Virus record (IMG/VR): IMGVR_UViG_3300000929_000239 | Span: 1-54,772 of that record | Source of the DNA: a virus | Strand: one strand, 5' to 3' | DNA: 54,772 nt | Shown: piece after piece, positions 4,600 to 26,629 of the stretch | How positions within the stretch are numbered: position 1 is the stretch's first letter | Layout of the letters: the number at the start of each line of letters is the position of its first letter | Position numbers and translations under genes: made by a program | Notes under the pieces: generated by a model | Database searches by the model: none | Told to the model about the DNA's origin: nothing | Seen by the model: only the letters and a program-made list of their open reading frames with translations

Positions 4600-6069
4600 C
4601 TATCCAAAAACCAAACCTGCAGCCCAATGTAAACCCCAAGCTACAAATCCTGATGACCCGGTATAACCACGTGCACCACCTGGACCTGGTCCCCCTGCAG
4701 GACCTGGTCCTCCCGTATTACCTTTAGAGCCAGTGTAGCCGCGAGGACCTGCTCCTCCGCCAGGCCCCGGTCCTCCTGTATCGCCTTTAGAACCGGTATA
4801 ACCGCGTGGTCCACCTGGACCGCCTGGTCCGCCTGGTCCTGGCCCTCCTGTATCACCTTTAGAGCCTGTGTAACCGCGTGGACCTCCTCCGCCGGTATCA
4901 CCTTTTGAACCAGTATAACCACGTGGGCCGCCAGGACCGCCAGGACCGGCAGGACCTCCTCCGCCGGTATCACCTTTTGAACCCGTATAACCTCGTGGAC
5001 CGCCCGGACCGCCTGGTCCGCCTGGACCTGCTCCTCCGGTATCGCCTTTTGATCCGGTATAGCCGATGGGCCCTTGAGGACCAGTTCCTCCGGTATCGCC
5101 TTTAGAGCCTGTAAAACCAATAATGCCTTGATTACCTTGAGATCCAGTGTAACCAATGATTCCTTGGGAGCCTGTAAAACCAATAACGCCTTGAGGACCG
5201 GTACTACCTTCAGAACCAGTATAGCCGATAATTCCTTGAGAGCCCGTAAAACCAATAACGCCTTGAGGACCGGTGCTACCTTCAGAACCGGTATATCCTA
5301 TAGGACCGATATCTCCGGTATCGCCTTTAGAACCGGTATAACCAATGATTCCTTGAGATCCAGTGTAACCTATAATACCCTGTGATCCGGTATAACCAAT
5401 AATTCCTTGAGATCCAGTAAAACCGATAGGACCGTTAGTTAAGAAACTAACTACTAGATTTGAATCATTACCTATTGACCCAAGTTGACCAGAAACATAA
5501 GTCACTGTAAAAAACTTACCGTTTCCAGCAGTTTGAACACTGCCAGTTATTTCATATATTAAATAATCGCCAGAATTTACATCGTCACTTTTCAGTAGTA
5601 GCTTACCTCTACTAGCACTAGTTCCGCTATCATCCCACGTATCAATATAAGATCCCCAAGAAGCTCCGTTATTAGCATTTTGATGTAAACCAATTTGTGT
5701 TGCACTCGCAAGTGTTACATTATTAAACAGAAGTTGTCCCGCAACTGTATAAGATCCACCGGTAGAAGTTGCTGTGGTACCTGTATCTACCTGATAAACG
5801 TTTCCAGAATTAGCACCAGAGCCAGTAAATCCTCTAGAACCCGTAAACCCTAATGAGCCATCATCCCCTTTAGAACCTACAAACCCTAATTCACCTCTTG
5901 AACCAGTAAAACCTGATCCTTTAGAACCAGTAAAACCTTGCGATCCAGAATATCCAAAGTTTGCTTGAGTTACCCATGAGGTGCTTGCAGAATCATAAAC
6001 CCAATCTACAGAGTTTTGAGAATATGTATCACCGTTTGCTGGATTAGGTGGAAAATTTAGAAATGCCAT
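4600..6069 (-). CDS. Collagen-like tail fibre protein (489 aa)
   Basis: The N-terminus (MAFLNFPPNPANGDTY...WVYD) is the short attachment module seen on many phage fibres (NFP..P.NG..Y). Two Gly-X-Y blocks follow, ~40-92 and ~215-472, split by a globular insert of about 120 residues. The repeats are built from G-Y-T-G-S-K-G-D-T-G and G-P-G-G-P-G-G-P-R-G units, which should form a collagen-type triple helix and hence a homotrimeric rod. The C-terminus is a short hydrophobic cap (FVAWGLHWAAGLVFG) rather than a folded tip, so the tip may come from one of the small downstream proteins. Located 3 bases after the 1736-aa gene. Fibre role is well supported; the binding target is not. Confidence 0.85.
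   Translation of the reverse strand: MAFLNFPPNPANGDTYSQNSVDWVYDSASTSWVTQANFGYSGSQGFTGSKGSGFTGSRGELGFVGSKGDDGSLGFTGSRGFTGSGANSGNVYQVDTGTTATSTGGSYTVAGQLLFNNVTLASATQIGLHQNANNGASWGSYIDTWDDSGTSASRGKLLLKSDDVNSGDYLIYEITGSVQTAGNGKFFTVTYVSGQLGSIGNDSNLVVSFLTNGPIGFTGSQGIIGYTGSQGIIGYTGSQGIIGYTGSKGDTGDIGPIGYTGSEGSTGPQGVIGFTGSQGIIGYTGSEGSTGPQGVIGFTGSQGIIGYTGSQGNQGIIGFTGSKGDTGGTGPQGPIGYTGSKGDTGGAGPGGPGGPGGPRGYTGSKGDTGGGGPAGPGGPGGPRGYTGSKGDTGGGGPRGYTGSKGDTGGPGPGGPGGPGGPRGYTGSKGDTGGPGPGGGAGPRGYTGSKGNTGGPGPAGGPGPGGARGYTGSSGFVAWGLHWAAGLVFG
4650..5440 (-). repeat. Collagen-coding imperfect tandem repeats
   Basis: The DNA coding the second Gly-X-Y block is a mosaic of imperfect direct repeats whose units are multiples of 9 bp (one GXY triplet), often 27-54 bp. 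The G+C-rich units coding GPGGPGGPRG stand out against the AT-rich surroundings. Such repeats invite in-frame expansion and contraction. Confidence 0.8.
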
Positions 6070-6072
6070 ATA

Positions 6073-9000
6073 TTAAGTCCCCGCGACTTTGCCTTTAAAG
6101 TTTCTTTCAGGATCGAATTCTACAAAAACGCCAGAAACGTCTTTATCCCAAGTTGCTTCTGAGTATCCTGTTACTAAGAAACTAGAACCGTTATTATCTA
6201 TACTGTATGAAAAGTCAGAAGAACCAGAACCAACTTGGTACTTAGACCAACCTTGGTAATTACCTAATCCATCAGAATCAAAATCAAATATACCTAGACC
6301 CATATCTTTTAATCCAAACGTATTCGCATCATCAGCAAATGCACCAGCAGTATTACAAACAACTCCGATTCTACCATCTAGTAGCTTAGAACTAGCTTTT
6401 CCGTTTTGTTCTATTTCTTCAGACGTTTCTGAACCTGTTTGAAAGCCGTTAGACCAAATATCACTATCATAGTTGAAAGTAATAATACCAATATCTTCAG
6501 ATCCAAATGTTTGTGCATTGTTTACTGAGCCAAAAGTAGTATATGAAATGGCTAATGAATTAGGTAGAATTTCATTTATATCATGTAGATTCATACCTTT
6601 GTCATTAAAACCAGAACCTATGTTATAGTATTCAGCATTCCAAGCCCTAGGATTAAATATTCCTAAAAATATATCATAGCCGCCAAATTGTGTTCCGCCT
6701 GCTAAATTACCTGTTGTTCTACCAGTAAAGGCAATGTGACCTTTTTTGGCTCCGCCTGATCCTGTTGAAGTCTGAATCCAGAATGGATGTGCTCTATTAT
6801 ACACAGTGAAATTAATTGTGTCACCCGTATCTATAGTTATAGTTGGGTTATTTACTGCAGGATTAATGTTACCTACTCTATCTGTTCCAGAGAATCTAAA
6901 TGCAAGAGGTACATTATCGTACATAGCAGTAATGTCAATTGATGATGTAGATCCTTGTACGTCTTGGACTACAATTTGTCCATTCATAGAACTATGATTA
7001 CCACATTGATAGTAGTAAGTACCTGCTACGGTTGGTGTCCAACTTACTGTACCTGCAAACCCGCCGTTGTTTACTGCTTCTGGGTCTGTGACTGCTTTAG
7101 ATGTTCCTTCTAGCTCTGTAAGGGCATAGATTTCTTCATCACCGTCATCACCGTTTTGCCATAATCTAAACTCACTGCTTGCGATATCCCACTGAGCTAA
7201 GTAGTAGTCATAAACTCCTGATAAGCCTGTGTTTGTTTTAGCTATATTACCAGAAACCTGACCACCAATATAGTAGTATTCTCCGTCTGAAGATTTTATG
7301 ACATCGTAAGCAAATACGTTACCATCATCTGCAGTCGCATCGCCTACAGTAGAAATCTGGTGTATTTGAAACAGATTATCTGCTCTATGAATAATATTAC
7401 CTGCGGCTTTTTCTTTTCTATATGTTTCAGTATTCAGGAATTCTTGTAAATCATCTTTATCTACAATAGCCATAAATCCAGTGAATAGACCGTTTGCGCC
7501 GTAAGACCCGTTATATTCTAAACCGTAGTATGATCCATCTATCAGTGACGTTCCTATATCACTAGAAGTGTATAATGCATCATTGTATGTTGGATTTGAA
7601 ACTTCTACCTTAGTAGTTTCTATAGCAGTTTCGTTAATAGTATTAATAGTAGCTGAATCATAATAATATGCATTGGAAGTAGAAGCTGTAGTGTGATAAA
7701 CACCTGTTCCCCAACCTTCTTTATCACCTCTAAACAATACTCCGTCTTTACCCTGTGAGTGAGATGTTGAACCTCCTACTGTAACAAAATTACGAGTAAG
7801 ATGATCCCAGACAATATCTTTCCCTATATTATCTTCACCCATGTGGCCCAAAGTATTATTAAAATATATTGATCCATCATTAGTGTTAATGCCGCCAAGG
7901 AGAGTATCAGCCCTCATAAGAGTCCCGCCGTCACTGTCCATATTTAAACCAGTACCAGTAAAGATTACTCTATGATTTCCATTATGAAACTCTTCATCTT
8001 CAAAGAACCACCACGGCCTGCTGTCAGAATCTTCTACTAGCAAGCTATTAACTTCTTCAAAATAACCCAATGGAGAATTAATTTGTTTTGACCATTCAAC
8101 GTCAACAACATAGCTTGCGCTATCAGCTATTTTTACTTTTTGCATTATTGCAAAAGAACTATGTCCTCTTTCTAGCATCATAGCACCCATAGTACCGCTA
8201 TAATCTTCTGCGCCTGAAGCTAGAGATGTGTCTTCTTTCTTACCACCTAAAATTAGCTCGTGTGTTGACAAATCAGAATCGTATTTTATTAAAGCTATAT
8301 CAAGCCATGCTGCCTCATACTCATCCCAACTTTGAGCATCTGATAGTGTATTGTTCGAATAGTTAATATATTTTACAAGATTAGCATCACTTATAGAAGC
8401 CATTCCCCATGCAGGACTTCTGTGAACACTTCCAGCACTGCCATTAGAAACTGAACCGCTAAAGAAGAATTTTCCGGTATCATCTCCACCAGCTACTACA
8501 TTATTAACATACATGCTAATATCAATACCGATTTCACTCAAATCTCTAGTAGATGTAGTATTACCATCAGTGTCAATTACAACTAACGCACCGCCCTTAA
8601 AATCTCCAGTATCAGCAGCTGAGTTGTGTAGGAATGTCGCAATATATAATGTGCCTGAATTTTTAACTAACGTAGCAGAGGTTGGTTTAATATATAAGTT
8701 AGACTGAGATAATTTTTTTGACCAAATAATAGTATCGCTTGAATCAATTTTTACAATTATAGCTGAGCTATAAGGAAAGCTTTCATTATATGTGTATCCT
8801 ACGACGTATTTGTCACCTGTGGCTTCATCGTGCAATATATCCACGCTGACATCATTTCTAAAACCAATATCTATTTTTTTAGATGAGCTTAACGTAAAAT
8901 TCTTATCGTAGTTTGCTAAAAACAGTTTACCGTCTAAAGTGTCAGTTCCAGCTACAGTATAATCACCATTATTATCTCTTATGATAGATTCAAAACTACA

Positions 9001-11283
9001 ACCTGAAGAATCAACAGTGTTGCTAAATCTTCTAGCCCAGCCATGCACCCACTGTTTAGATTTGTCGGCTAGCTCACCTTTTGCATAACCTGATAATACT
9101 AGCTTATTATTTTCAACATCTTCTATAATACCTGTAACAAAGTCGTCACCTTCTAGTCCATAACTATAACTTACAGAGTTGTTTTCATTATCTACGATAG
9201 TAAGAACCATATCTCCAGATAATTCATTTCCTAAATTACCAGGAGCATTTTCTACTCTGCCTACAAGAGCTTTTCTTCCATCTGATAAGTAAATACCTTG
9301 GAAGTAATATTCGGTCGATCCGGTATTAATTTCTTTTCTGTTATAGAATTGTGGAGAAGCTATATCCCATTGAAGAATGCTAGTACCATTTGGAATACCT
9401 TCTGGTTCTAACTGGTTTTTTCTAGTAACTATACCGGTTGCATTATTGTATGATAAATGACCAGATGTATTGCTATTACGATTAATAAACCCACCTGTTG
9501 TCGTTTCATAGTCTAGATGTTCATAACCGGCAAAACTACCACCGGCCAAATCCCAACTGTATAAGCCATCGCCGCTGTAGGTTCCAACTCCATCGTCTCC
9601 GCTTAATAGTGTAAAGTATTTAGTATTTTCTGCATTGTATTTAAAACCATGCACTCTTAGAGGGTTGCTTGGCGGATTCGTTACGATGTTACCTTCAAAA
9701 CTGATGTCTCCGCTGGAATCAATCTGAGTATCAAAGCTGTACATCTGAGCGCCGCCGGATTGACCACCTGCAGCTGTGATATAACCGTTTGAACCCACAG
9801 ATGTAATTAAAGCACTAGGATATACGTCTGTTCCTTCAAAAGGATAAGGCATATTAATACGTTCTAAAGTACCAGGAGAAATAGTATTAGCGTCTGTTAC
9901 TCTCCATATCTGAAGATCGGACGCAGTAGAAAGTTCGGAGACAACAATCTCGCCGTACATACCATTATGCACCGTACAGAAATAGTAATAAGTTCCTGCA
10001 CTTTGCGGTGTAAATGTTACAGTATTAGTACCGTTACCTGAAGATCCTGGAGCATTAATTCCACTAGGGCTTCCGCCATTGTCTGTGAATACATTCATAG
10101 GATGCACGTTTAAAACTAGGTTAGTGAAAACCATAGTGTCGCCAACCTTCATAAGAATATCAGGTTGAATTGCTACCCCATCAAGAGTTCCTGGTTCTTG
10201 TCTATCTGTACCTAATACTTTATACTTATTTGCCTGATTGTTTAGTTGAACTGTAAAACTTTTCGGTTGTGCCTGCATAACAACAGGCCAGTAGATATAA
10301 GATCCAAACGTATGTCCGCTACTTATAGAAAAAGTGTAATCTCTTTGTACGCCTTCAGCTTCTTCGTTACCTCCAGGATAAGGATTAAAGGTAGGTTTTT
10401 GTATTTTAAAATCACCATAATTAACTTGAGCAGTGAAAGAACCTGAAGAAGATGTAAATGTTCTAGAATAAACAGTCCATTCACTATCAGCGTTATTTGC
10501 ATCTTCTAAATAAAATGCATGGAATCTATTTGAACTACCTTTTAAAATTCCAGCTGGAAGATAATTAATTCCGGCCTGATTAGGAAGCGTAACGTCATTG
10601 TGTGAGTTATGTGCACCACCAACTGATGGAGTATGGATTCTTGCTAGAGGTACCGAGTAGGCCAAGCCGCCAGACTTAACTAGGATATTAATCATATATC
10701 CGTACTGTTTATCAGAAGGCCTAATAAACCCATCTGATCCCCAGGTTAATCTACCATCATCAAATTTAGAATAGTTAGAAGGTAAGTGCTTGTGATATTG
10801 GTAGTATTCCCACTCGTCGCCTTGATTTCTTTGATACATTCTATCCCAATAGAATGCGTCATCTTCGAGATCCCCGCCACCTCCAACGCCGTTGTTACCA
10901 TATTGACCAATGTGCGAAAACATAAATGCATCGTTTTCAGAAACACCTGTAATATCATTGGAACCAGTACCAATGTGCTGGCCAGCTCCACCATGATATT
11001 TTTTTGCGGTTCCGTCCCAAGTCTCGCTAATCCAAGCAAAAGTTCCATCGGTTTCAGCATAAGTAGGCTCACTACTATTTAAATAATAAGAAGCATCTAT
11101 ATGTAAAGCCGAATCCCATTTATATAGTTCAATAGCATTACCAGTTTGCGTAGTATTATTAACTATATCGGCAGGATGATACACATACCAATAGCCATTA
11201 TCAGCGATATGGTGCTGAACAGGTAAACCCAGAAAATCTGAATCTACTAAGGAAACTTCTTGTGTTAGATTAGCAATAGCCAT
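6073..11283 (-). CDS. Giant virion protein with propeller-like repeats and cupredoxin domains (1736 aa)
   Basis: One intact frame of 1736 codons. Residues ~330-448 form a cupredoxin (blue-copper) domain with ligand set His394, Cys436, His439 and Met442 (YYYFCTVHNGM). Residues ~450-1400 contain many loosely repeated blades of the type G-x-Y-x-V-A-G-T/S followed by D-x-x-x-x-W-S-K, as in SBBP-type beta-propellers. A second cupredoxin is present in swapped order: Cys1427-x2-His1430-x2-Met1433 comes first and the His-containing half (RAHPFW, His1499) follows. The C-terminal ~230 residues add further G-D-I-G-I/L-I-F-strands. Neighbours are fibre proteins, so it is probably a virion fibre or adhesin. 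No symbol can be given. Copper binding is inferred from ligands, not shown. Confidence 0.75.
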   Translation of the reverse strand: MAIANLTQEVSLVDSDFLGLPVQHHIADNGYWYVYHPADIVNNTTQTGNAIELYKWDSALHIDASYYLNSSEPTYAETDGTFAWISETWDGTAKKYHGGAGQHIGTGSNDITGVSENDAFMFSHIGQYGNNGVGGGGDLEDDAFYWDRMYQRNQGDEWEYYQYHKHLPSNYSKFDDGRLTWGSDGFIRPSDKQYGYMINILVKSGGLAYSVPLARIHTPSVGGAHNSHNDVTLPNQAGINYLPAGILKGSSNRFHAFYLEDANNADSEWTVYSRTFTSSSGSFTAQVNYGDFKIQKPTFNPYPGGNEEAEGVQRDYTFSISSGHTFGSYIYWPVVMQAQPKSFTVQLNNQANKYKVLGTDRQEPGTLDGVAIQPDILMKVGDTMVFTNLVLNVHPMNVFTDNGGSPSGINAPGSSGNGTNTVTFTPQSAGTYYYFCTVHNGMYGEIVVSELSTASDLQIWRVTDANTISPGTLERINMPYPFEGTDVYPSALITSVGSNGYITAAGGQSGGAQMYSFDTQIDSSGDISFEGNIVTNPPSNPLRVHGFKYNAENTKYFTLLSGDDGVGTYSGDGLYSWDLAGGSFAGYEHLDYETTTGGFINRNSNTSGHLSYNNATGIVTRKNQLEPEGIPNGTSILQWDIASPQFYNRKEINTGSTEYYFQGIYLSDGRKALVGRVENAPGNLGNELSGDMVLTIVDNENNSVSYSYGLEGDDFVTGIIEDVENNKLVLSGYAKGELADKSKQWVHGWARRFSNTVDSSGCSFESIIRDNNGDYTVAGTDTLDGKLFLANYDKNFTLSSSKKIDIGFRNDVSVDILHDEATGDKYVVGYTYNESFPYSSAIIVKIDSSDTIIWSKKLSQSNLYIKPTSATLVKNSGTLYIATFLHNSAADTGDFKGGALVVIDTDGNTTSTRDLSEIGIDISMYVNNVVAGGDDTGKFFFSGSVSNGSAGSVHRSPAWGMASISDANLVKYINYSNNTLSDAQSWDEYEAAWLDIALIKYDSDLSTHELILGGKKEDTSLASGAEDYSGTMGAMMLERGHSSFAIMQKVKIADSASYVVDVEWSKQINSPLGYFEEVNSLLVEDSDSRPWWFFEDEEFHNGNHRVIFTGTGLNMDSDGGTLMRADTLLGGINTNDGSIYFNNTLGHMGEDNIGKDIVWDHLTRNFVTVGGSTSHSQGKDGVLFRGDKEGWGTGVYHTTASTSNAYYYDSATINTINETAIETTKVEVSNPTYNDALYTSSDIGTSLIDGSYYGLEYNGSYGANGLFTGFMAIVDKDDLQEFLNTETYRKEKAAGNIIHRADNLFQIHQISTVGDATADDGNVFAYDVIKSSDGEYYYIGGQVSGNIAKTNTGLSGVYDYYLAQWDIASSEFRLWQNGDDGDEEIYALTELEGTSKAVTDPEAVNNGGFAGTVSWTPTVAGTYYYQCGNHSSMNGQIVVQDVQGSTSSIDITAMYDNVPLAFRFSGTDRVGNINPAVNNPTITIDTGDTINFTVYNRAHPFWIQTSTGSGGAKKGHIAFTGRTTGNLAGGTQFGGYDIFLGIFNPRAWNAEYYNIGSGFNDKGMNLHDINEILPNSLAISYTTFGSVNNAQTFGSEDIGIITFNYDSDIWSNGFQTGSETSEEIEQNGKASSKLLDGRIGVVCNTAGAFADDANTFGLKDMGLGIFDFDSDGLGNYQGWSKYQVGSGSSDFSYSIDNNGSSFLVTGYSEATWDKDVSGVFVEFDPERNFKGKVAGT

Positions 11284-11286
11284 AAA

Positions 11287-11655
11287 TTATGATCCTGAAA
11301 TTGGAATACCCGGGCGAAATACAATGTCTGTAGTGTTGATAGCAAACCCAATAAATAAAGCTCTAGTTGAAGCAGTAGGTGTGGGAGGCGATGATTGTAT
11401 ATTACCGCTAGTTGAAAGATAGTAAGCCTGCCCTGGCGTTAGTCCAGTTAGTCCTGAAATTGTTCCAGCTGCGTAGTATTCATCACCTATTTTAAATAAT
11501 ACATTAAAAAGCTGTGAAGATGTATCAGTGTTTGCTGCATTTACTACGGTATTAGATCCAGATATTCTAACCACCTTACCATTATCCCCGCCAGAAATAC
11601 TGGGTACGGTAATAGCATCGGCCGAAAGTGTACTGGTTGATTTGACGAATGCCAT
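11287..11655 (-). CDS. Small virion/fibre-associated protein (122 aa)
   Basis: MAFVKSTSTLSADAITVPSIS starts at ATG 11655, one base before the C1q-like gene stop. It is a compact Ser/Thr/Gly-rich protein with a central segment (LTGLTPGQAYYLSTSGNI) typical of short phage tail proteins that begin with a small beta-barrel: the phrase 'G-L-T-P-G-x-x-Y-Y-L' recurs in fibre-associated proteins. No signal, membrane or catalytic motif. The position inside the fibre run implies a structural part; not further recognised. Confidence 0.6.
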   Translation of the reverse strand: MAFVKSTSTLSADAITVPSISGGDNGKVVRISGSNTVVNAANTDTSSQLFNVLFKIGDEYYAAGTISGLTGLTPGQAYYLSTSGNIQSSPPTPTASTRALFIGFAINTTDIVFRPGIPISGS

Positions 11656-11656
11656 T

Positions 11657-12628
11657 TTATACTCCTTCTCTAACGAGTTCTAAATAAACGGTTGGGTTAA
11701 TAGCACCAGTGTTATCTGAATTAGAAACTAAAAGTTCTAAAAACGTATCTGCTGCTATGTATACTGTTTGATCAAGTTCTAACTGATCATTAGCTGACAT
11801 GGTAGATGTACTAATTGAGGTTTGTACTGCGCCTGCTGTTGTTTGTCTTAAAGTTATAGTATAAGAATTTTTAGATCCTGCTGATGAAGTTTCAACTAGA
11901 GATCTAATCTTATAATACCCAGAAGCTCTTGCTGTTAAACGCTCTGGCTCAGTATTATACCAATATAGATCGCCAAGTACATTAGCGTTGGCGTTAAAAT
12001 CCACATTTGAAAAATCAATTGCCGTAGGAGTCGAAGTCGTACTTACTGCATTTGTTACAACACTTCTTACACCACTAAACGCATTATGGTTAGATATTCC
12101 TGTTCCCGGCGCGAACCCTATTCTATACATTGTAAAATTGGTATCAGTAGTTAAAGCTCCTAATCCAGTAGTCTCTTGACACTGTACAGTGATAAAATCG
12201 CCTTCTACTAGAGAAATAGTTTCATCAAAGTTAACATTTTGATTAGCGCCAAAGGATATTTCACCTAATAAAATAGTAGTATTTTTATAAATTCTAGCAG
12301 TATAGGAAGATCCTGTACCTGAAGAATCACTAAATAAAGAAGCTAGTACTCTATAGAATCCAGTACTAGGAGCTATAGATTTTATATTGTCATCTGAATA
12401 ATAGTTATCAATATTAAATTCTACAGTGTTGAATGGCACATCTGCAAATGAACCTGTCAAATCGAATGCAGCAGTAGTAGAAGCTTTTACACCGCTAAAA
12501 ACTTTTCTTGTAGTACTAGTAATTACGTCCCATACTGTGGAGTCGCTATCATACTGCCAAACAGCTTGATTGGGATCTGAATATAAACCTAAATGAGCAG
12601 GAGAAGCTGGGAATTGAAGTGCAGTCAT
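11657..12628 (-). CDS. Fibre protein with two C1q/TNF-like domains (323 aa)
   Basis: A short attachment-type N-terminus (LQFPASPAHLGLYSDPNQAVW) is followed by two repeats, ~42-172 and ~183-322. Each contains F-x-x-V-x-F-N/D, a G-F/Y-Y-R/K-V/I-x-x strand, a stretch of short strands and E-x-D-x-x-x-L-x-x-x-D-F/T. These are hallmarks of trimeric C1q/TNF-like jelly rolls (tissgFYrV ... ytaRIYkN ... LveGDFITVQ). Such domains cap collagen-like stalks in nature, and a collagen-like protein is encoded two genes downstream. Likely a trimeric fibre head; binding partner unknown. Confidence 0.65.
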   Translation of the reverse strand: MTALQFPASPAHLGLYSDPNQAVWQYDSDSTVWDVITSTTRKVFSGVKASTTAAFDLTGSFADVPFNTVEFNIDNYYSDDNIKSIAPSTGFYRVLASLFSDSSGTGSSYTARIYKNTTILLGEISFGANQNVNFDETISLVEGDFITVQCQETTGLGALTTDTNFTMYRIGFAPGTGISNHNAFSGVRSVVTNAVSTTSTPTAIDFSNVDFNANANVLGDLYWYNTEPERLTARASGYYKIRSLVETSSAGSKNSYTITLRQTTAGAVQTSISTSTMSANDQLELDQTVYIAADTFLELLVSNSDNTGAINPTVYLELVREGV

Positions 12629-12636
12629 ATTATTTC

Positions 12637-13848
12637 CTATCCATTAAAACTTACGTTAATGCTTACTTCGTCCACTAAGCCTAATGGGTTAGTAACTTCT
12701 GCCCAGATCCACCGACCAGCATCTATAGTAGCATTAGAAATACTGCCAACGTTTCCACTAGTTGTACTATTAATCGTGCCAGAAGTTATCAGAGTTCCTG
12801 AAGAGCTTCTATCAGAATCATACTTAAGAGACATGCTCACACTTGATCCAGGGTAGCTAACTATTGATCTTACTTCAGAAACTATCATCTGCCTATCAGT
12901 ATACATTAATGTTTGCTGATCGCCTGAATCTGGTGCTTGGAAAGAAATAACACGAGGACCGTATACACCCTGAGAACCAGTATAGCCAACTGAGCCAGAA
13001 TAGCCTCTATCTCCATCAGATACTGTAGGATCTGCTTGCAGCACCCATTGCGACTGACTTGTCGAGGGATTAGTATAGTAGATATATGATTTCCCAGTGT
13101 TTGAATTGTACCAAATTTGACCGGCTGTAGGATTAGCCGGAACATTTTCACCTTGAAATATAGCCCCAGCAGATCCTGTAAATCCTCGTTGAGATGCACT
13201 TGCGTCTACCCACTGAGCACTAACGTCAGCTGCATCAACTACTATAATTTGGCCTTGCATTGATGGATGGGCTGAGCAGATATAGTAATATGTTCCTACG
13301 GAATTGAACTGATAGCTGATTGTAGTACCGTTATAGCCACCATTATTAGTTACACCTGGAATATTATAGAGGGCATCATATGAGTTACTAAGACTTAACT
13401 GAGAAACTAAGAAGAACGGGTGAATTGCTGTAGCACTATTAACTACATTTAGTGTATCACCTTTATATATGTAAATAGTAGGATCAGGGTCGCTCGAGAA
13501 CGTAGAACTTCTATCGCTACCAGTAAACAAATAATCTCCTGATTGTGCATTTGTTTGTGTAGCTGCTAAATTAATTGCTGCGGCTGCTGGAGTTGGTTCC
13601 CCATAGTAAATTTTTAACTTACCGTTTACTGCATCCCACCATAAAGAACCATCTTGCAACGAGCTAGTAGGAGCTGCAGAATCTGTTTCCGCACCTCCAC
13701 CTGAAATACTTGAAACAGTATTAGATGAGGTTTTATAGTACAATCTACCATCGGCGTAGTTTAAAGCAACTTCGCCGTAGTCCAGATCTCCAGTTCCAGG
13801 AATCTTTCCAGAGACCGCGGATCTTTTTAGTTTTATATTTGCTGCCAT
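12637..13848 (-). CDS. Tail fibre protein with cupredoxin domain (403 aa)
   Basis: The N-terminus (IKLKRSAVSGKIPGTGDLDYGEVALNYADGRLYY, read in two pieces) is the common phage-fibre head in which a G-E-x-A-L-N-x-A-D-G-x-L-Y turn is diagnostic. Residues ~95-205 form a cupredoxin domain with His143, Cys191, His194 and Met197 (YYYICSAHPSMQG), all four type-1 copper ligands in amicyanin spacing. A short GXY stretch (GDRGYSGSVGYTGSQGVYG) follows near 280-298, then a globular C-terminal domain. A late promoter lies ~60 bases upstream at 13910-13917. Fibre role is firm; copper binding is inferred from ligands. Confidence 0.8.
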   Translation of the reverse strand: MAANIKLKRSAVSGKIPGTGDLDYGEVALNYADGRLYYKTSSNTVSSISGGGAETDSAAPTSSLQDGSLWWDAVNGKLKIYYGEPTPAAAAINLAATQTNAQSGDYLFTGSDRSSTFSSDPDPTIYIYKGDTLNVVNSATAIHPFFLVSQLSLSNSYDALYNIPGVTNNGGYNGTTISYQFNSVGTYYYICSAHPSMQGQIIVVDAADVSAQWVDASASQRGFTGSAGAIFQGENVPANPTAGQIWYNSNTGKSYIYYTNPSTSQSQWVLQADPTVSDGDRGYSGSVGYTGSQGVYGPRVISFQAPDSGDQQTLMYTDRQMIVSEVRSIVSYPGSSVSMSLKYDSDRSSSGTLITSGTINSTTSGNVGSISNATIDAGRWIWAEVTNPLGLVDEVSINVSFNG

Positions 13849-13909
13849 TTTGTAACCCTAGTAAGGAAAGTCTTTTTTATGAGTAATAACTCGACTCCAC
13901 AATTTACAT

Positions 13910-13917
13910 TATTTATA
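13910..13917 (-). promoter_or_regulatory. T4-type late promoter (TATAAATA)
   Basis: Read on the minus strand the site is TATAAATA, the T4 late consensus recognised by gp55/gp33-modified RNA polymerase. It lies in the 73-bp gap after the 1895-aa fibre stop, ~60 bases before the 403-aa fibre start. Confidence 0.7.
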
Positions 13918-13921
13918 CAAG

Positions 13922-16900
13922 TTAATATGTACCGCCGTCAATAACACCATCAATTAATCCTGCTACTTTAATACCTCCTGGAGTTGACCACACGCGTCCT
14001 CCTCCTGTCGTATTAGTATTGGCTGAATTACCCATGTATGGATGATTTAAACATTGGTATGCTATAGTTCTTGGTCCGTAGTCGTGAACCCTAATTTGAG
14101 CGTAAGAGTTTCCTACGTTTTTATCTCCAGCCGTTCCTACATAAGATATAGTAGCCGCACTATCAGAGATAAGTCCATTCTTCGCATCATCATAGTAGAA
14201 CCTAACATCGTGAGTGCTCATTGATGAATCGTGCATATGGAATTTGTATGTAACACCTGGTGTTAAATCAAGATGTGGAGCCTCGAGTGTGTAACCATAG
14301 CCACTTCTTATATAATCAGAATCGTGAGATATGTAATATCCCTTTAATGAACCATTACCATAGTACCTATGGTCTGTCGTTTTAAAATCAGATCTCATAT
14401 AGAAATTAACAATAGGATCGCCAAATGAATCGTGATCGCCATCATTACTGTTTGGCGAAGCGTCTGAATCTCTATTTTGATATGTTCTAGCAATCATACC
14501 CACTTTAGGAGTCACAGCAAGGTTGCTACCGCTCATACCGGTAATATTTTGAATCCCGCTTAAATAGTTACCAAGGTATCTAGCGGCTAGTCTATTTAAG
14601 CCAATACCTGAAGTATTACCGTATTGGAGGTTTACACCGGTCTCACCAGATATGGCTACATAAGAACCTTCATTGGTAATCCAAGTTGGGATTTTGTAGC
14701 TATCGCCCGCTGGGGTAGTAGTTTGAAATCTAATAGGTCCTGAATTAGATTGATAAAGATCACCTGTGCCGCTTTGGCCAAATACGCCTTTACCTATTTC
14801 AAGCTTCGTGCCAGTCTGAAGAGTAACATCAGCGCCAAATTCGTCTATTACTTCATCAAAAGATCCGCCATCAGCCGTAGATACGTTGTAAGTATTAGTA
14901 GCAGGTGTCCATGATGTAGAAGAAACCCCTGCGACACTTACTGTAGTTGCACTGGTAATTTGACCTTGATCATTGATTGTTAATTGCGGTACTGCCGAAG
15001 CGGAACCATATGTATTTGCAGTTACTCCAGTATTAGTAATGTCTATGGTACCAGTCGCGGGAGTATATGTTATCCCTGTTCCGCCGATAAGAGAATTTTT
15101 AGAATCACTATCGGCTCTTGCACTAGTATAATATAGGTTGGTAGAACCTTCTGAAAGATTATCCGTAGACTTAAGTGCCAATCTTACATCAAAATCTGAA
15201 TCAGCTCTTACTGTGGTGTAATATAAGTTGCTACCTTCGGCAACATCACCTGTAGACTTAGTTGCCAGTCTTGTGTCAAAATCTGAATTAGCGCGAGCTG
15301 TGGTATAGTATAGATTAGTTCCCTCTGGTAATATAGTTGTTGATGAACTGCCTAAGTCGCTATCGAAATTAGCCTTACTATAAACTTCTTCAACATCAAT
15401 ACTGATAACACCAGTACTAGAATTATAAGAAAGGTCTCCTGTAACACTAATAGCGTTTTTAGCATCACTATCAGCTCGAGCAGCGGTGTAATAAAGATTA
15501 GTAGAACCTTCTGAAAGATCATCTGTAGATTTAGCTGCAATGTTTGCATCTACTCTAGCATCAGTATAATATAAATTTGTTAGTTCTGGTATTTCAGCAG
15601 TGTTTACAGCTCCTGGAGTTGAGCTGAAATTAATTGTAACAGCGCCGCTTGTTACAGCAAAATCATCACTACTGAATGAGGCAATACCTTTATTAGTATC
15701 GGTTGCATCCTCTCCCTTTATTTCACCCGATGATATATCAATACCCTCACCGGCAGTAAAATGAGCTCTAACTTCAGCAGCAGTAGGACCAGTGTAAGAT
15801 ATTACTCCAGTTGATTCTGTATATGATAAAGAACCATCACCACCGTTATCAGTAACACTAATTGATCTTTTAGCATCGCTATCTGCTCTTGCAGTAGTAT
15901 AATAAAGGTTTGAGCCTTCAGTTAGATTAGTAGTAGTATGATTTGAAATATCAGAAGCTGTACCAGTTAAAGTACCAGTAAATCCCGTAGTCGCTTCAAT
16001 TGTTGTACCAGAAATCTGTTTTGCTCTTAGATCTGCATAAGAGTATGTAGCGTGAGCAGTATTAATACTACCTGATGGTTCGGGCGTATAGTTATCAAAG
16101 AACTTCCAAGTACCGTCTGATGTATCTCTAAACAATCCAGCGTGGCGATAAATATCATCTGGTTCGTTATAGTTACCAGCGAGACCAATTTGAACGTTAA
16201 TCGGTGACGCATCACCTGACCAGCTATCATTAAGATCATGCCCAGTAGCAGCATCAAAGTCTATAGAAACACCATAGCCTAAAGGCGCTATAAGTCCGTT
16301 ATTAGTAAGGTTCCATGTAGATGGGCCTAGTGCAGAATCAAATGGTTGTACACCAGCACCAAAACTATCTAACGCCCATTCAATAGTATCTCCGCCGGTC
16401 GCACTAATTCTAACTCTAAAAGTCTCGTCTGAATCGCCTTTAAAGTGGCCAGTGAATGTAGCGTTTTGGTCGCCAGTACCATTAAAGTTAGTATTACCTG
16501 CACCGATTGTATCACCAGCACCAAGATAGATAAATGTATCCGCAACGTTGAGGTTTGATACCGCAGTACGAGTTTCCGTACCTAGAACGTTTAGGTTACC
16601 ACCGATAGTAAGATCTGCATCTATTCTACCGTCACCTGCAACTCTTAAAGTTTCTACTACTTCTTTTGTAATAGTAACTTGAACACAACCACCAACATTA
16701 TTTGCTTCGGCTGAATCAGCAACCAGAACCGTACCTATTTCAACTGCATAGTTTGGATAAACTGGGTTGTCAGAAATTAACTCACCTGCAGAATCTACTG
16801 ATACGTGTACTACATCGCCGGCTACAAAGTTTTGAGTGTCTAATCCTCCGACTAAACCCCTATTAATTACTAAACCATATTGGCCAGGAGAAATAATATC

Positions 16901-19609
16901 TTTAGTTAAACCTAAAGTTTTGTATACTGTATTTAAACTATTTGCTCTTGCTAGTGCTACAGTTGGGAAGTCATTTGATGCACCAGTTACATAAACTGCT
17001 TTACCTTTATCAATCTGGCTACCAGAGTTATTAAAGACTCTTGTTACTTCTTCTTGTCCCAGTTTTATTACACTTGCAGTAGAAGATTTATATACTAGAG
17101 CATCAGGTCCAGGGTTGTACCATAATCCACCTTCAACTGTTGTTGGAGCACTTCCGTCAGGATAACTAGTGGGATCTAATTCAATATACCCTAAGTTTGC
17201 CCGGCCTGCGTCAATGCTATCTACGGTAAGGTTAGATGCATTTATTTGTGTTATAGATGCAGAATCACTTGTAATTTGTCCTATTGTCGCAGAATCGAAA
17301 ACACCTTGACCAGCTTGTAATTTTATTTTACCTGAATTATGATTTCTCATAACCATGCTGCCATCGCTATCTGCCATGACTAGTGTGCCCAAATAAATGG
17401 AATTACCGCTTAGGTATAAATCTTTCCATTTTTGTGCTGAATCACCTAGATTATAAGCACTATCTGCTCCTGGAAGTAAATGGCCTGTAACAGTAACTGG
17501 ACCGGTAACATCTATTCCTGCATTAAATTTTACTGCAGTACCAAAGCTATCGATTAGAGTATTAAACTCTCCACCATCAGCTGTATTAATTGTTAGTGTA
17601 CTATTAACCCCGCTCCAAGATGTAGAATCAACACCTGCAACATTCACAGTTCCAGCCGCAGTTAACCTACCTTGTTGGTCGACAGTAAATGTAGGAACCA
17701 AGCTAGCCGATCCGTATGATCCTGGAGTCACGCTTGTGTCGTCTAAATTTACTGTATTTGTTGCAGCATCATACGTAAGAGCGGTTCCACCAGATATAGC
17801 AGCGTCAAGGTCTGAATCAAAATTAGCAGCAGAGTATATGCTCTCAACGTCAATGCTAAAATCGCCAGTAGTTGAGTTATATGATAAATCACCGCTTGCA
17901 CTAAGATGACTTCTAACTGCAGAAGCAGATGTGGCATCTCCTAATGCACTATCAAATCTTGATCTAGTGTAATAAAGATTATCGCCTTCTGAAAGATTAG
18001 TAGTGGATTTAGTTGCTAATCTTACATCAAATGCACTATCTACTCTCGACTGAGTATAATAAAGGTTTGTACCTTCAGCAACATCAGTTGTAGTTCTATC
18101 TGCAAATCCTTGGTTAATGTCGGAATCTGTTCTTACCTTAGTGTAATAAAGATTAGAACCTTCTGTAAGATCTGCAGTTGATTTTGTCGTTAGTCTATTA
18201 TCAAAGTCAGAATCGGCTCTCGTAGTTGTATAATAGAGGTTGCTACCTTCTGATAGATCGCTAGTAGTGTTGGATTTTATTTCATCAATATAGAATGTAC
18301 CAACCATAGCGGCATGTATTCCGCACTGATAAACTAAAGTATCGGGTGCATCAAATGGTACCGTGAATGTGATTTGATTAGTACCGTCACCTACTACGCC
18401 TGAAGTATATTGCGTACCTCCGTCTTCCAATCTTATTTCGATAGGATGCGAGCCGTGTGACGGATTATTGATAATATATGTTTTACCACGTTGAAGATAT
18501 ATAGATGGATTATCGCCAGATTGTACAGGGAAACCATCTCCTGTAAATTGATAAGCTCCGCCATTTGCACTTGCTACATCAATTATAACTTCAGCTCTTC
18601 TGATAATTTCGAAAGTGTCATGAGCTGAGTCATAAGTTAAAGTAACTGAAGATTGTAAAGCGTTATCTAGATCTGAGTCAAAGTTACTAGCGTCGTAGAC
18701 TTGAGAAACGTCAACAGAAAATTCACCAGTACTAGAATTATAGACAATATCGCCAGATGTAGAAAAATAGTTTCTAATAGCAGATATGCTAGTAGTATCT
18801 CCTAATGCACTATCAAATCTTGCTCTAGTATAATAAAGATTAGAACCTTCTGCTAAATTACCAGTATTATAAGGATCTAAAGTAATTACTTCGGCAAAGG
18901 TTCCGCCATCTGCGGTACTAATAGTAAACGTACCATTAGATGAATCAAAGTCTATACTTGAAACGCCTGCGACTGCAACCTCTCCGGCTGATTCCACTAA
19001 ACCTAAATCATTTAACTTAAATACCGGAATATTGGTTGCGCCGCCATATGTTCCTGCTGCTGCTCCAGCACTATCTAGAGCTATGTTTAAGTTATAGTCT
19101 AATCCTACTTTTGCGCCAGAAGTAGTTATTCCATTTCCGCCAATAGCATTTACAATTTCATTGCCGTATAGCTCAACAGAATCTATAAATCCTTCATCTG
19201 TTTTAAATTGTAAATTCGAAACTTTTCCTATTTCCGTATCAACATATATCTTAGGAGTAAGGTCATTATTATTAAATACTGAAACGTCATCTACACTAAC
19301 AGTATTAGCTTCTAAATTGCCTGCTATATCTACAGCACCACTTATAGTAGTTGCAGCTGAAGTAATAGTTAGATTATTACCAGACATTGTTAGCGTATCG
19401 CTATCAAACTGGAAATTATCTATATTAAGATTATTAAGAACAGAGGTATTTACAAAGGCGGCCGCTGCAGAATCGTACCTTAAAAGCTGGTTATCAGCTA
19501 AAGATGTTAAAGAAAATCCTGAAAGGTTCTGGATACTGAATGACCCTGAAGTAACATTTCTTAAAGGAGTTCCGACAACAACCTTTTTAATTATAGTAGT
19601 TACTGCCAT
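13922..19609 (-). CDS. Giant tail fibre with NLYYT repeats and two cupredoxin domains (1895 aa)
   Basis: A single 1895-codon frame. It contains 11 copies of a D-L-x-E-G-S-N-L-Y-Y-T-x-x-R-x-D-S-D unit (residues ~250-1495), a repeat seen in fibres of marine T4-like phages. Inserted cupredoxin domains lie at ~355-445 (His388, Cys429, His432, Met435) and ~1785-1865 (His1800, Cys1853, His1856, Met1859). Residues ~735-775 carry the 'NLGDSAQKWKDLYL' segment of fibre shafts, and ~840-1010 a beta-rich globular block (VTRVFNNSGSQIDKGKAVYV). A late promoter precedes the 118-aa gene just upstream. It is a rod-like long fibre component by composition and place. It has no S74 chaperone, unlike the 1462-aa fibre. 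Confidence 0.85.
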   Translation of the reverse strand: MAVTTIIKKVVVGTPLRNVTSGSFSIQNLSGFSLTSLADNQLLRYDSAAAAFVNTSVLNNLNIDNFQFDSDTLTMSGNNLTITSAATTISGAVDIAGNLEANTVSVDDVSVFNNNDLTPKIYVDTEIGKVSNLQFKTDEGFIDSVELYGNEIVNAIGGNGITTSGAKVGLDYNLNIALDSAGAAAGTYGGATNIPVFKLNDLGLVESAGEVAVAGVSSIDFDSSNGTFTISTADGGTFAEVITLDPYNTGNLAEGSNLYYTRARFDSALGDTTSISAIRNYFSTSGDIVYNSSTGEFSVDVSQVYDASNFDSDLDNALQSSVTLTYDSAHDTFEIIRRAEVIIDVASANGGAYQFTGDGFPVQSGDNPSIYLQRGKTYIINNPSHGSHPIEIRLEDGGTQYTSGVVGDGTNQITFTVPFDAPDTLVYQCGIHAAMVGTFYIDEIKSNTTSDLSEGSNLYYTTTRADSDFDNRLTTKSTADLTEGSNLYYTKVRTDSDINQGFADRTTTDVAEGTNLYYTQSRVDSAFDVRLATKSTTNLSEGDNLYYTRSRFDSALGDATSASAVRSHLSASGDLSYNSTTGDFSIDVESIYSAANFDSDLDAAISGGTALTYDAATNTVNLDDTSVTPGSYGSASLVPTFTVDQQGRLTAAGTVNVAGVDSTSWSGVNSTLTINTADGGEFNTLIDSFGTAVKFNAGIDVTGPVTVTGHLLPGADSAYNLGDSAQKWKDLYLSGNSIYLGTLVMADSDGSMVMRNHNSGKIKLQAGQGVFDSATIGQITSDSASITQINASNLTVDSIDAGRANLGYIELDPTSYPDGSAPTTVEGGLWYNPGPDALVYKSSTASVIKLGQEEVTRVFNNSGSQIDKGKAVYVTGASNDFPTVALARANSLNTVYKTLGLTKDIISPGQYGLVINRGLVGGLDTQNFVAGDVVHVSVDSAGELISDNPVYPNYAVEIGTVLVADSAEANNVGGCVQVTITKEVVETLRVAGDGRIDADLTIGGNLNVLGTETRTAVSNLNVADTFIYLGAGDTIGAGNTNFNGTGDQNATFTGHFKGDSDETFRVRISATGGDTIEWALDSFGAGVQPFDSALGPSTWNLTNNGLIAPLGYGVSIDFDAATGHDLNDSWSGDASPINVQIGLAGNYNEPDDIYRHAGLFRDTSDGTWKFFDNYTPEPSGSINTAHATYSYADLRAKQISGTTIEATTGFTGTLTGTASDISNHTTTNLTEGSNLYYTTARADSDAKRSISVTDNGGDGSLSYTESTGVISYTGPTAAEVRAHFTAGEGIDISSGEIKGEDATDTNKGIASFSSDDFAVTSGAVTINFSSTPGAVNTAEIPELTNLYYTDARVDANIAAKSTDDLSEGSTNLYYTAARADSDAKNAISVTGDLSYNSSTGVISIDVEEVYSKANFDSDLGSSSTTILPEGTNLYYTTARANSDFDTRLATKSTGDVAEGSNLYYTTVRADSDFDVRLALKSTDNLSEGSTNLYYTSARADSDSKNSLIGGTGITYTPATGTIDITNTGVTANTYGSASAVPQLTINDQGQITSATTVSVAGVSSTSWTPATNTYNVSTADGGSFDEVIDEFGADVTLQTGTKLEIGKGVFGQSGTGDLYQSNSGPIRFQTTTPAGDSYKIPTWITNEGSYVAISGETGVNLQYGNTSGIGLNRLAARYLGNYLSGIQNITGMSGSNLAVTPKVGMIARTYQNRDSDASPNSNDGDHDSFGDPIVNFYMRSDFKTTDHRYYGNGSLKGYYISHDSDYIRSGYGYTLEAPHLDLTPGVTYKFHMHDSSMSTHDVRFYYDDAKNGLISDSAATISYVGTAGDKNVGNSYAQIRVHDYGPRTIAYQCLNHPYMGNSANTNTTGGGRVWSTPGGIKVAGLIDGVIDGGTY
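15100..18870 (-). repeat. Eleven NLYYT-unit repeats in the 1895-aa fibre gene
   Basis: On the minus strand, eleven imperfect units coding E-G-S-N-L-Y-Y-T-x-x-R-x-D-S-D occur in two clusters, 17,940-18,870 (five copies) and 15,100-15,910 (six copies). The clusters are separated by unrelated fibre sequence. Neighbouring copies are ~80-90 bp apart. Confidence 0.8.
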
Positions 19610-22240: not shown

Positions 22241-25200
22241 TTAGTTACCCTTCAATTCTTCTATTTCTTGTTTTAATTCTTTGATAGCTTCAATTAGTAC
22301 GCCAACCATCTTACCATAGTCAACCGCTTTCATTCCTTCAGTATCAGTATGAACAACTTCTGGAAGAACCTCTTCTACCTCTTGAGCAATCACACCAACC
22401 TTACGCTCATCTTTACCAATCTTGTTATACCACACACCACGTAGCTGTGATACTAGATCTAAGCTATTCTCAACAGTTTCAATGTTCTCTTTGGTTCTTA
22501 CATCAGAAACAGATGTAATGTCACCTTGAACTGTTAGATCATCACTACTGAATGTTGAGTTAAGAGTCGCTAAGTTGGCTCCAGTATAGATTTTAAGAGT
22601 GTTGTTTGTATTTAAATCAAATCCAGCACGTTCAGTACCATCAGCGTACAAACCAATTTGCCCGGTTTGGGGATTTAAATTAACATCACCGCCGTTGTCC
22701 GCCGCATCACCCGTGTATAAGGTTAAGGCACCGTTAGTTGCACCTACGTTTAAATCATCAGTTGCAATGATTTTTTGGTCTATTACTCCGAGATAAAACT
22801 CGATTTGATCATTAGCTGTTGCGCCTCGCATATAAACACGACCATCAGTTGGGACTAGATAAATATCCTCTGTTGCTTTAATATACGTTTGCACAGGGCT
22901 GTTTATAGTTGTGCCAACAAGACTTTGGTTTGAGCTCGTGATTGAATTAAACCCAGAACCACCGTTTTGAATATAGAATTTTAATACCCCGTTTTCATCA
23001 CCACTAGTGGTTGATCCAGCCGTGTATCCAGTAGTGCCTTGCATCCATGCATAATCATGTCTAACATTTGAAGAGTTTCGTCCTGCAAATCTTATATATC
23101 CGCAATTGGTGTTGTGAGCCATAGAAGTATCAGTATTCATTAACCTCAGTTCTATAGGGCGGCTTAGTGAATTTGAAGTAGATTGAGATAGCGTTAATGC
23201 ACCAGTACTTGTAATATTACCTAACGTTTCAGACAATGTAATTGGTTCAAATTTAATTCTGTCGTGTTCGTAAGTCGAGTCAAAGCTAAACTCTGTACCT
23301 GATAGAACTAAGCCGTCACCAGCTGAGTAGGTAGTATTTGTATCAGCATCATCCCGCCATGCAGGATTACCACTTACGTCTGTTTTCCAAACTTTACTTG
23401 CAACAGAACCTGGTGCAGCCACATAACCAGCTATAGTTTTAGTGTTTGCATTCCAAGTGTTTGTATTTGTATCGGCATCATCTCGCCATGAGGGAACACC
23501 ACTTGCATTTGTTTTCCAAACTTTATTAGCTTGGCCAGCGCCTGATGCAACATAACCATCCTCCGTACTACTGTTTGCATTCCAAGTGTCATTATCAGTA
23601 CCGGTAATAGTAAGTTCGGTGGCAGAATTTCTGGTAACTGAAACGCTTCCAGAGCCTGTGAACTTTACTCTATCTGAATCTCCATCAGAACCTAAAAGTC
23701 TTATATCTGTCCCACCGCTAGGAGAAGCTAGACCGTAAGTAGTATTGTCATTATCATCAGTCCATGGAACATTAACATATGCCTTATCACCAGATAGTTC
23801 AACAGGATAGTTCTTACCAGATTCAGTGTAACCTACCTGTATACCACCTCTAGTACCATTAGTTGCCTTTGGTAAAGAATAGACGTTGTTATTATATTCT
23901 GAAGATACTGGAATATTGTAATAGGTTGTGCCGTCATTTGTAAACTGCCAACGATCATCACTCTCGTCCCACTTTAACACAGTATTACTTTGAGTTCCGC
24001 GCTCAATTTCAATGCCAGCATCTTCTGATGGATTAGTACCACCAAAGTCATTGTTGAGGACAATAGTGTTATCACCAATATTAAGTTGTGTAGCATTAAT
24101 TTCTGTTACTTCACCTTGGAATACTACATTGCCGTTAAATGTAATGTCTGAGTCATTAATATGGATATAACCGTTATTGGTATCACCGTGTATTTTAACC
24201 CCATTACCACTTTTAACAAATCTACCAAAACGAGTACCGTTATTTTCTAAGAAAACGTTACCGTTGCCAGCATCAAGGTTAATGCTGTTAACTGTATCAA
24301 GAGTTACGTCATAACCTTTAGTGGTGACATCAATTTGATCTGTTCCAATGTGTAGATCTCTACTAGACCAAATACGAGATTTATTCCCACTTAGATATGG
24401 TTGCAATGACAGCCCAACATTAGTACTATCATTATGAATTACGCTAAGGGCATTACTCTTTACATAGAAACTATTAGTTCCATCAGTTGTCATGATTGGA
24501 GCATTAGTATCAGTGTAATAACCAGCTGTATCAATTTTCAACGAAGGATTAGCAAAACCATCTTGCTTAAAGTTAAAGTTGCCATCAGCAGCTGAAGTAA
24601 GGTTAATATCAGCAGCTGAAGTAAGAGTAATATCCCCGCTAGTATTTTGAATACTGTCTACTGTTAAGATACCAGTTGTTGCTGCGTTTGCAGTAAGGTC
24701 GCGAGTAAAGATATTGTCAAATGCCGCGCTATCATTTTGAAGTGCTAATCTATTAAGGCCAGTAAGTGTTCCTGCTTCCCAATAATCTCCTAATTCATTC
24801 CATTGTAGTACTGCGCTATCAGTGCTTGGACGATCAACAGCTAATCCTGCTCTATTAATATCATTTACTGAAACACCGTCGTTTACTATCGTATAGCTGC
24901 TTGCATTCCTACTTACTCCAGTGGTAGTAAATGTTCCATTCACAGTAAAACCACTAGAAACACTCAAAATGTCGAACGTAGCGCTATCTGCAGAAATACT
25001 TCCTATACCTGATATCTTATCTGGTAAACTGATAGTAGCGGAAGATCCTTCTCCCGGCGTATGAGAAACAGTAATCTCATTAGCTGTGCCTGAGATACCT
25101 GACACATAGTTGCCAGTAGTTTCTGTTCCAAGAATAACACCATCGTCTTTGATTGTTACTGCACCGTCAGTCACAGAGAAGTTTTGTGTACTGAATGAAG

Positions 25201-26629
25201 CTACACCTTTGTTAGATGATGTTGCCACTTCGCCATCAATCTTAATATTATTATTAGATACAGTTGTGGTAATACCTTCACCTGCTTCAAAAGTTATCGT
25301 ATCTCCTAACGAAACATTATCATCAGTACCTGTTTCAGCAGAAATAGTGAATGCAGTTCCTGTTGAAGTTACATCACCACCAATGTCCAAATTACCTGTG
25401 ATATACGCTGAGTCATTAACCGTTAAGGCATCATCAAGAGTAGTAGTTCCCTGAACATTTAAAGCGTTACTTACAGTCGCGCTATCAAGAGTGGTAGTTC
25501 CCTGAACATCTAAATCACCTGATATAGTTGCGGAATCAGCAGCTAAATTATCAGCGTTAACTGTACCAGTAAAATAACCATCGCGCCACTGCTGACTATT
25601 GCTACCTAAATCAAAAGAGTTATCTGCGTTGGGAATAATACTAGAATTAACATCGGCAGTGAATACTACATTGTCGGTATTAGCATCACCAAGAGTAACT
25701 GAGCCATTTGTACCGGCTTTAAAATTAACGGTACCGTCTACAGTAAGAGAGCCATCTACTTGTAAGTCGTTTGTAACTGTCACGGTAGTATCTGCAACTT
25801 CAATTCTTGAAGATCCGCCAGTATGTATATCTACTGCATCCGTACCAAATACAACTTTTGTATTATCATTACCTGAATGGATAATAGCATCTTTTACGTG
25901 CACGTTTGCTACGTCGTTAATATCGTATGTTCCAAGGGATAGTTCACCGTCTATCGTAGTACTGTCAAGAGTAGTCAATCCAGTTACATTAAAAGTAGTA
26001 TCATCCCATGTAAGGTTGGCATTATCTTCTAATTCTCCAGAAGTACCCGCAAATACAATTCTGTTATCAGTTAAGTCAGTAACTTTCATAGTACCAATAG
26101 TAGCACTATCAGCTGAAACTTCATCAATGTAGCCTGTTCCATCTACATATAAATCACGCCATTCTTGTCCAGTGCTACCTAGATCAAAGGCGTCATCTGT
26201 ATTAGGAATAATACTTGAATTTATATCAGCATCGAATACGACGTTATCTGTATTGTCATCTCCAAGTGTTACAGTTCCTGAAGAACCAGCTTTCATGTTA
26301 ACAATACCGTGGACTGTTAGACTTCCACCGATATCAACATTAGTATCTACTTTTAAATTACCTGCAAGTCTACTTGTAGATGAGCTATCATACGCATCTA
26401 TTTTTGGTGTTCTTACTTTAATTGTGTCAGCAGAATCTAACCTTGCCTCGTGCTCTTGTAATGCCTCGCCAATAGTAGGTCTGCTTCCAGCGAAAGTAGA
26501 TCTACCGCTAGTTTGATCAATGCTTGTTAGGCTCATATCACCAACTGAATCTAACAGCTGGTTAATTCTTCTTCGCTGCGTATTTAACGTATCAGTTAAA
26601 GTTATATTAGGTATTTTTGAATTAGCCAT
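22241..26629 (-). CDS. Long tail fibre with C-terminal S74 self-cleaving chaperone (1462 aa)
   Basis: A helical-capped N-terminus ([15 protein letters not shown]) leads into long fibre-shaft repeats, including two copies of the NSSIIPN-[AT]-D-x-[AS]-F-D-L-G-S block and repeated VQGTTTLD segments. The C-terminal 88 residues are a peptidase S74 intramolecular chaperone: Ser1375-Asp-x-Arg-x-Lys1380 at its start ([10 protein letters not shown]), V-G-V-I-A-Q-E-V-E-x-V-L-P-E in the middle and a coiled-coil end. In phage fibres this domain trimerises the shaft and then cleaves itself off at the Ser. The mature fibre would therefore end near residue 1374. Probably the main long fibre that is matured before assembly. 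Confidence 0.9.

Follow-up and report, generated by a model that had tools for sequence, protein, structure and literature searches.

The window, which is the whole stretch of 54,772 bases from a virus record analyzed here, encodes five ligand-complete cupredoxin domains (D1–D5). The best overall explanation, which we consider fairly probable, is that they are modules, stabilized by metal, in the fibers and the fiber-baseplate connector of a T4-like marine myovirus. On the minus strand, genes for a baseplate tube cap, a hub, wedge proteins, and fibers make up a tail module of the T4 kind, and the three ORFs with these domains (table 1) lie in the fiber block, next to a collagen-like protein (4600–6069) and a fiber with an S74 chaperone (22241–26629). 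The collagen-like protein adjoining the fibers contains G-F/Y-T-G-S-x-G repeats.

Table 1. Fiber proteins with cupredoxin domains in the window (positions are those of the window; residues are numbered within each protein).
Feature	Position	Strand	Description
1895-aa fiber protein	13922..19609	-	gp9-like connector part and D1, then long shaft and D2; phrog_677, phrog_697, and phrog_30742 matches
gp9-like part preceding D1, residues 33-335	18605..19513	-	PHROG profile match
D1, residues 336-445	18275..18604	-	H388 C429 H432 M435; gp9 C-terminal lineage
D2, residues 1731-1872	13994..14419	-	H1800 C1853 H1856 M1859; divergent lineage, common to Pelagibacter and Methylophilales phages
403-aa fiber protein	12637..13848	-	one cupredoxin (D3) and short collagen-like stretch
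D3, residues 91-210	13219..13578	-	H143 C191 H194 M197; cupredoxin by predicted fold
1736-aa fiber protein	6073..11283	-	normal cupredoxin D4 and permuted cupredoxin D5
D4, residues 336-452	9928..10278	-	H394 C436 H439 M442; Pfam Copper-bind above cut-off
D5, residues 1396-1530	6694..7098	-	circularly permuted cupredoxin, C-terminal half leading
D5 C-half, residues 1396-1441	6961..7098	-	C1427 H1430 M1433
D5 N-half, residues 1455-1516	6736..6921	-	H1499

A preliminary description of this DNA had reported five H/C/H/M sets in three neighboring fiber ORFs, and all 20 of the 20 residues were found at the positions given there. The C..H..M motif occurs five times in these three proteins, and all other frames of at least 100 amino acids in the window lack it; five of their eight cysteines fall inside such motifs.

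Profile and structure comparisons indicated that the domains are true cupredoxins, D2 being more divergent. The Pfam Copper-bind family (PF00127) recognized D4 with 38.6 bits (cut-off 21.2), D3 was at or near the cut-off (20.4 bits with the whole protein and 22.9 in a genome search), and the C-terminal half of D5 scored 15.7 bits, which is below it. D1 and D2 are under PF00127 detection and were tied to cupredoxins through profiles. Eight divergent phage domains (27–38% identity to the first) have ten columns in common that never vary, the four ligands among them. Comparison of a profile of 88 domains with PDB gave 114 sequence matches at E ≤ 1, and the best 60 of the 114 are all copper proteins of the cupredoxin family (E values of 1e-7 for NirK, 7e-7 for rusticyanin, 2e-6 for plastocyanin, and 7e-6 for amicyanin); the H, C, H, and M positions fall on the copper ligands of rusticyanin in this alignment.

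As to the possibility of another fold, Foldseek placed the AlphaFold model of D3 (pLDDT 88.6, pTM 0.83) as a cupredoxin Greek-key beta-sandwich, with 225 PDB matches at E ≤ 1e-3, the top ones being rusticyanin, the Nitrosopumilus purple cupredoxin, small laccases, and nitrite reductase. BFVD models of phage proteins that carry such domains also match D3, best at 1.5–3 Å, and none of these phage entries is named cupredoxin. D2 was joined to the family by profile-profile comparison (98.5% probability). The best cupredoxin match of its model had an E value of 4e-3 in Foldseek, where the matches were mostly but not solely cupredoxins and a Shewanella protein of other description appeared at the same level; a cupredoxin fold of D2 is thus probable from modeling. 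In the D2 branch, two more residues (Lys13 and His17 of D2, 13994–14419) are invariant and located off the type-1 site.

The likeness to amicyanin suggested earlier stands for one side of the site. Its C-x2-H-x2-M loop resembles that of amicyanin, but at the other side the first histidine stands in H-P-F/I/M (H-D in D2), and the nearest solved relatives are equally rusticyanin, nitrite reductase, and plastocyanin. HPF is a feature of the type-1 site of multicopper oxidases, which the H-P-F/I/M of the fiber domains resembles.

The 1895-aa protein links the domains to a known tail component. Residues 33–442 of this ORF match positions 47–409 of the PHROG 677 profile (E 9e-26), which is nearly the whole profile. 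The N-terminus of gp9 in cyanophage S-SSM5 contains the T4 gp9/10 domain (T4_gp9_10_N, PF07880); since a search of the window protein for this Pfam domain gave no match at E ≤ 1, we call that protein gp9-like and not gp9. D1 matches 326 phage records, almost all of cyanophages, and in isolates the matching gene is gp9, the baseplate wedge-tail fiber connector, whose C-terminal domain is the cupredoxin. Searches for the N-terminal part of gp9 gave 292 records and those for its cupredoxin gave 331, two counts that are not paired by record. The D1 lineage is thus represented in about 290–330 public T4-like cyanophage records, and a cupredoxin forms the gp9 C-terminus in most T4-like cyanophage records searched. 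Pfam reported no cupredoxin in S-SSM5 gp9 at E ≤ 0.01, which may explain why the domain has stayed unlabeled: public annotation of cyanophage gp9, filed as "connector" or "hypothetical," mentions no cupredoxin.

Copies of the fiber and D2 types were detected in phages P-SSM2, P-HM1, and S-CAM4, in Pelagibacter phage Mosig, and in Methylophilales phage Melnitz. When D3 was searched as a single domain against viral contigs, its near-identical twin was the sole match, and an alignment of diverse domains contained no segment conserved enough to serve as a query. In the T7-like podovirus P-GSP1, a cupredoxin is found at the N-terminus of a protein adjoining the tail fiber gene; the presence of this gp9-type domain in a cyanopodovirus indicates a transfer of the module from one tail type to another. 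The P-GSP1 cupredoxin is followed by TTAKIADDAVT repeats (L462:3444-5444).

In the phylogenetic tree, the gp9, D2, and fiber/cellular groups are separate. D1 falls with gp9, D3 and D4 lie in different fiber branches, and the relatives of D2 form a group of their own, so that recent duplication as the source of the five sites is unsupported by the tree, in which many forks are weak. Cellular domains close to the fiber type (up to 48% identity, mostly ligand-complete) lie at the C-terminus of lipoproteins from marine Flavobacteriaceae and in a small Prochlorococcus protein that is apparently secreted. Many lipoproteins or surface-type proteins of marine Flavobacteriaceae (L335-L388) have such fiber-like cupredoxins at the C-terminus, often several per genome. 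The Prochlorococcus protein, found in single-cell genomes (L389:5001-5297 and L392:5001-5294), has a signal-like start and one fiber-type cupredoxin with C-x2-H-x4-M spacing.

Retention of the ligands was examined at several distances. Two relatives of this phage (G007 and G008, 46–74% protein identity) keep 20 of 20 and 16 of 16 comparable ligands, whereas the remaining C/H/M residues in these proteins are conserved at 59 of 93 and 41 of 93 positions, respectively; the loss of ligands in close homologues that would have spoken against a metal site was thus not seen (36/36 vs. 100/186). G008 seems to have no D1, but that contig begins within the ORF, which says nothing about the domain. Among gp9 proteins gathered through their N-terminal 300 residues, a part unrelated to the cupredoxin domain, all 77 of the 77 complete ones keep H, C, H, and M while many other columns vary. 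A search model with the four ligand columns masked returned 368 full-length domains, 351 of which are HCHM, and the ligands are among the most conserved columns even when the search ignores them.

Loss of ligands occurs in groups. Across all loci, with odd rows re-read by eye, 88 of 94 phage clusters (<70% identity) are complete and six are degenerate, percentages which are upper estimates because some seed patterns included ligands; the gp9 test and a subset of 26 clusters without domains from ligand-bearing patterns are unaffected. Every degenerate cluster lost at least two ligands, and loss of a single ligand was observed in none of the 94. Loss of the first His goes together with loss of the C..H..M motif (Fisher's test over the 94 clusters, uncorrected P-value = 1e-6). 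In the 26-cluster subset, 22 clusters are complete, and each of the remaining four has lost several ligands together (one row being an alignment shift). Apparent losses in L053 and L455 were explained by an alignment shift or by C-x3-H spacing instead. Copies with multiple ligands lost were located at L018:5900-6230 and L288:3980-4309, and in L305, L311, and L250. Groupwise loss of this kind is expected of a metal site. On the other hand, degenerate copies are still recognized as the domain, implying that the ligands are not simply required for the fold, and their persistence in some fibers in ligand-free form implies that the module can serve without metal.

Family-wide retention and loss only in groups give good support to the earlier suggestion of selection for metal binding. 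The domains probably bind a metal, most likely copper in a type-1 site. One alternative is that they are carbohydrate- or protein-binding adhesion modules derived from bacterial surface proteins, with the ligands kept by inheritance or fold packing in a metal-free virion. The Flavobacteriaceae lipoproteins as close cellular relatives and the persistence of degenerate copies fit this reading, but it does not account for ligands that rank with the most conserved columns in a ligand-blind search and are lost only in groups, or for several divergent tree lineages, each of which is complete; we consider it unlikely. Similarly improbable is another metal, such as zinc, serving structure alone. Apo-cupredoxins can bind zinc, which is more readily obtained in the cytosol; however, structural zinc seldom has a His2-Cys-Met set, which is typical for copper sites, and the Met is conserved as strongly as the other ligands.

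D5 shows an unusual arrangement: its C-terminal half, with the last strands and the C..H..M motif, precedes the N-terminal half with HPF. Neither half has another partner within the 1736-aa protein. A nested insertion was rejected, as there is no unpaired N-half upstream and no unpaired C-half downstream. The same order occurs in a second contig (99.9–100% protein identity) and in relatives of 53–81% identity (L417-L424), all with four ligands, making an assembly artifact unlikely and confirming the ligand set that had been described as permuted. Phage S-CAM1 has another permutant (AOV57849), with a later cut and likewise with all four ligands, in a protein with an S8 peptidase. In AOV57849 (L415:3407-5662), the permuted cupredoxin lies before or within the S8 (subtilisin) peptidase protein; an S8 peptidase of S-CAM4 has an ordinary C-terminal cupredoxin, and proteins of ACG-2014e/h look similar. 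From sequence, we infer that D5 and the S-CAM1 permutant would each fold as one domain. We know of no earlier case of a blue-copper domain that is circularly permuted in nature, and no description of a natural permuted cupredoxin was found in the open-access literature searched.

With regard to function, free copper in the cytosol is kept extremely low. Considering that the virion is assembled there, the domains would probably be made copper-free and take up copper after virion release. At one end of the beta-sandwich, the metal would then hold the two loops together, giving a stiffer module. T4 gp9 and fibers are trimeric; if the present proteins are assumed to be trimeric as well, three sites would stand side by side per trimer. 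The gp9 site would be located at the joint from which the long fibers hang, and the best guess from this location is a metal-stabilized structural or docking module rather than an enzyme. Such a role is the best of several and, in our opinion, somewhat favored. The fullest version of this hypothesis, on which we are evenly divided, is that T4-like marine phage virions may contain working type-1 copper centers, which would be fixed at the gp9 joint across cyanophages and multiplied along fibers, and that this lineage and, separately, S-CAM1 may have evolved permutants.

A redox or metal-triggered switch, in which copper binding or reduction at the host surface would bring about a change at the joint that helps to signal attachment to the baseplate, is somewhat less probable than either alternative discussed above. 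The position at the gp9 joint, a full type-1 ligand set permitting Cu(I)/Cu(II) cycling, and the presence of the domains in proteins adjoining or fused with proteases agree with a switch. No redox partner was found, however, and some copies lie distally in shafts, such as D2 at residue 1800, or in a protein of a podovirus, where a trigger for the baseplate would be meaningless. Delivery or scavenging of copper, a copper version of the iron Trojan horse in which the phage brings copper or exploits host copper uptake, is very doubtful: five sites in one fiber set and several per genome might suit it, but no link to a receptor or to uptake was found and the inner-connector sites are badly placed for a receptor. 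Finally, chance motifs within unrelated beta-structure are exceedingly improbable, since five motifs were found vs. 0.0016 expected in the three fiber proteins from composition (one motif turned up in 38 of 20,000 shuffles, and no shuffle had two or more) and the profile, fold, and family evidence is also contrary, which refutes this reading for D1, D3, D4, and D5, the case of D2 depending on its profile-profile match.

A structural or docking module with a metal site therefore remains our preferred reading. If copper is bound at the fiber joint of these cyanophages (about 300 sequenced from the ocean), virions from one of the most abundant groups of marine viruses would be copper proteins, and phage stability and entry would be linked to a scarce, toxic ocean metal. 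Copper in virus tails is a concrete, testable idea. The preliminary description knew of no proposal of copper in phage tails, and this agrees with the open-access literature searched, as distinct from the whole literature: nothing there links cupredoxins or copper to phage fibers, and neither a paper text on gp9 in a virion proteome nor a proteomic paper naming copper was found in it. Some individual proteins may already carry a cupredoxin-like label in automatic databases.

Comparison with known systems places the fiber domains apart from each of their relatives. Rusticyanin (1a8z), plastocyanin (2plt), amicyanin (1aac), and the Nitrosopumilus purple cupredoxin (5fc9) resemble D3 in fold and have the same ligand order and identity. 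Small blue-copper proteins are free secreted electron carriers, whereas the fiber domains are embedded in virion fiber proteins, have H-P-F after the first ligand, and are predicted to bind copper. Amicyanin has the same C-x2-H-x2-M loop length, but it is a stand-alone periplasmic protein serving methylamine dehydrogenase; the fiber domains sit inside ORFs of 403–1895 aa and are thus not amicyanin. The Flavobacteriaceae lipoproteins and the Prochlorococcus protein have the domain at up to 48% identity with all ligands, but they are cellular proteins with lipoprotein or signal peptides.

Among phage proteins, cyanophage gp9 (PHROG 677) resembles D1 and the part preceding it, with a C-terminal cupredoxin that has all ligands, but the window connector differs in being fused to a fiber of 1450 residues. 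The fibers of P-SSM2, P-SSM5, and P-HM1 (AAX44675, AAX44672) contain one or two ligand-complete domains each, of the fiber and D2 types; unlike in the window, their domain order is normal and the connector is not fused. We know of copper-centered proteins in cyanophages solely as the metabolic gene petE. Its product, plastocyanin, is a cupredoxin of the same phage group, yet it is encoded by a separate metabolic gene within a carbon/photosynthesis cassette and is not a virion domain (PMC3037559). In D2, an HxH-like HMH departs from the consensus of the D2 relatives; HxH motifs are those of potential iron-binding fiber domains. Such potential iron-binding domains have been proposed in phage fibers as part of the Ferrojan Horse idea (PMC11705849), and they are likewise metal sites in tail fibers, but for iron and not copper.
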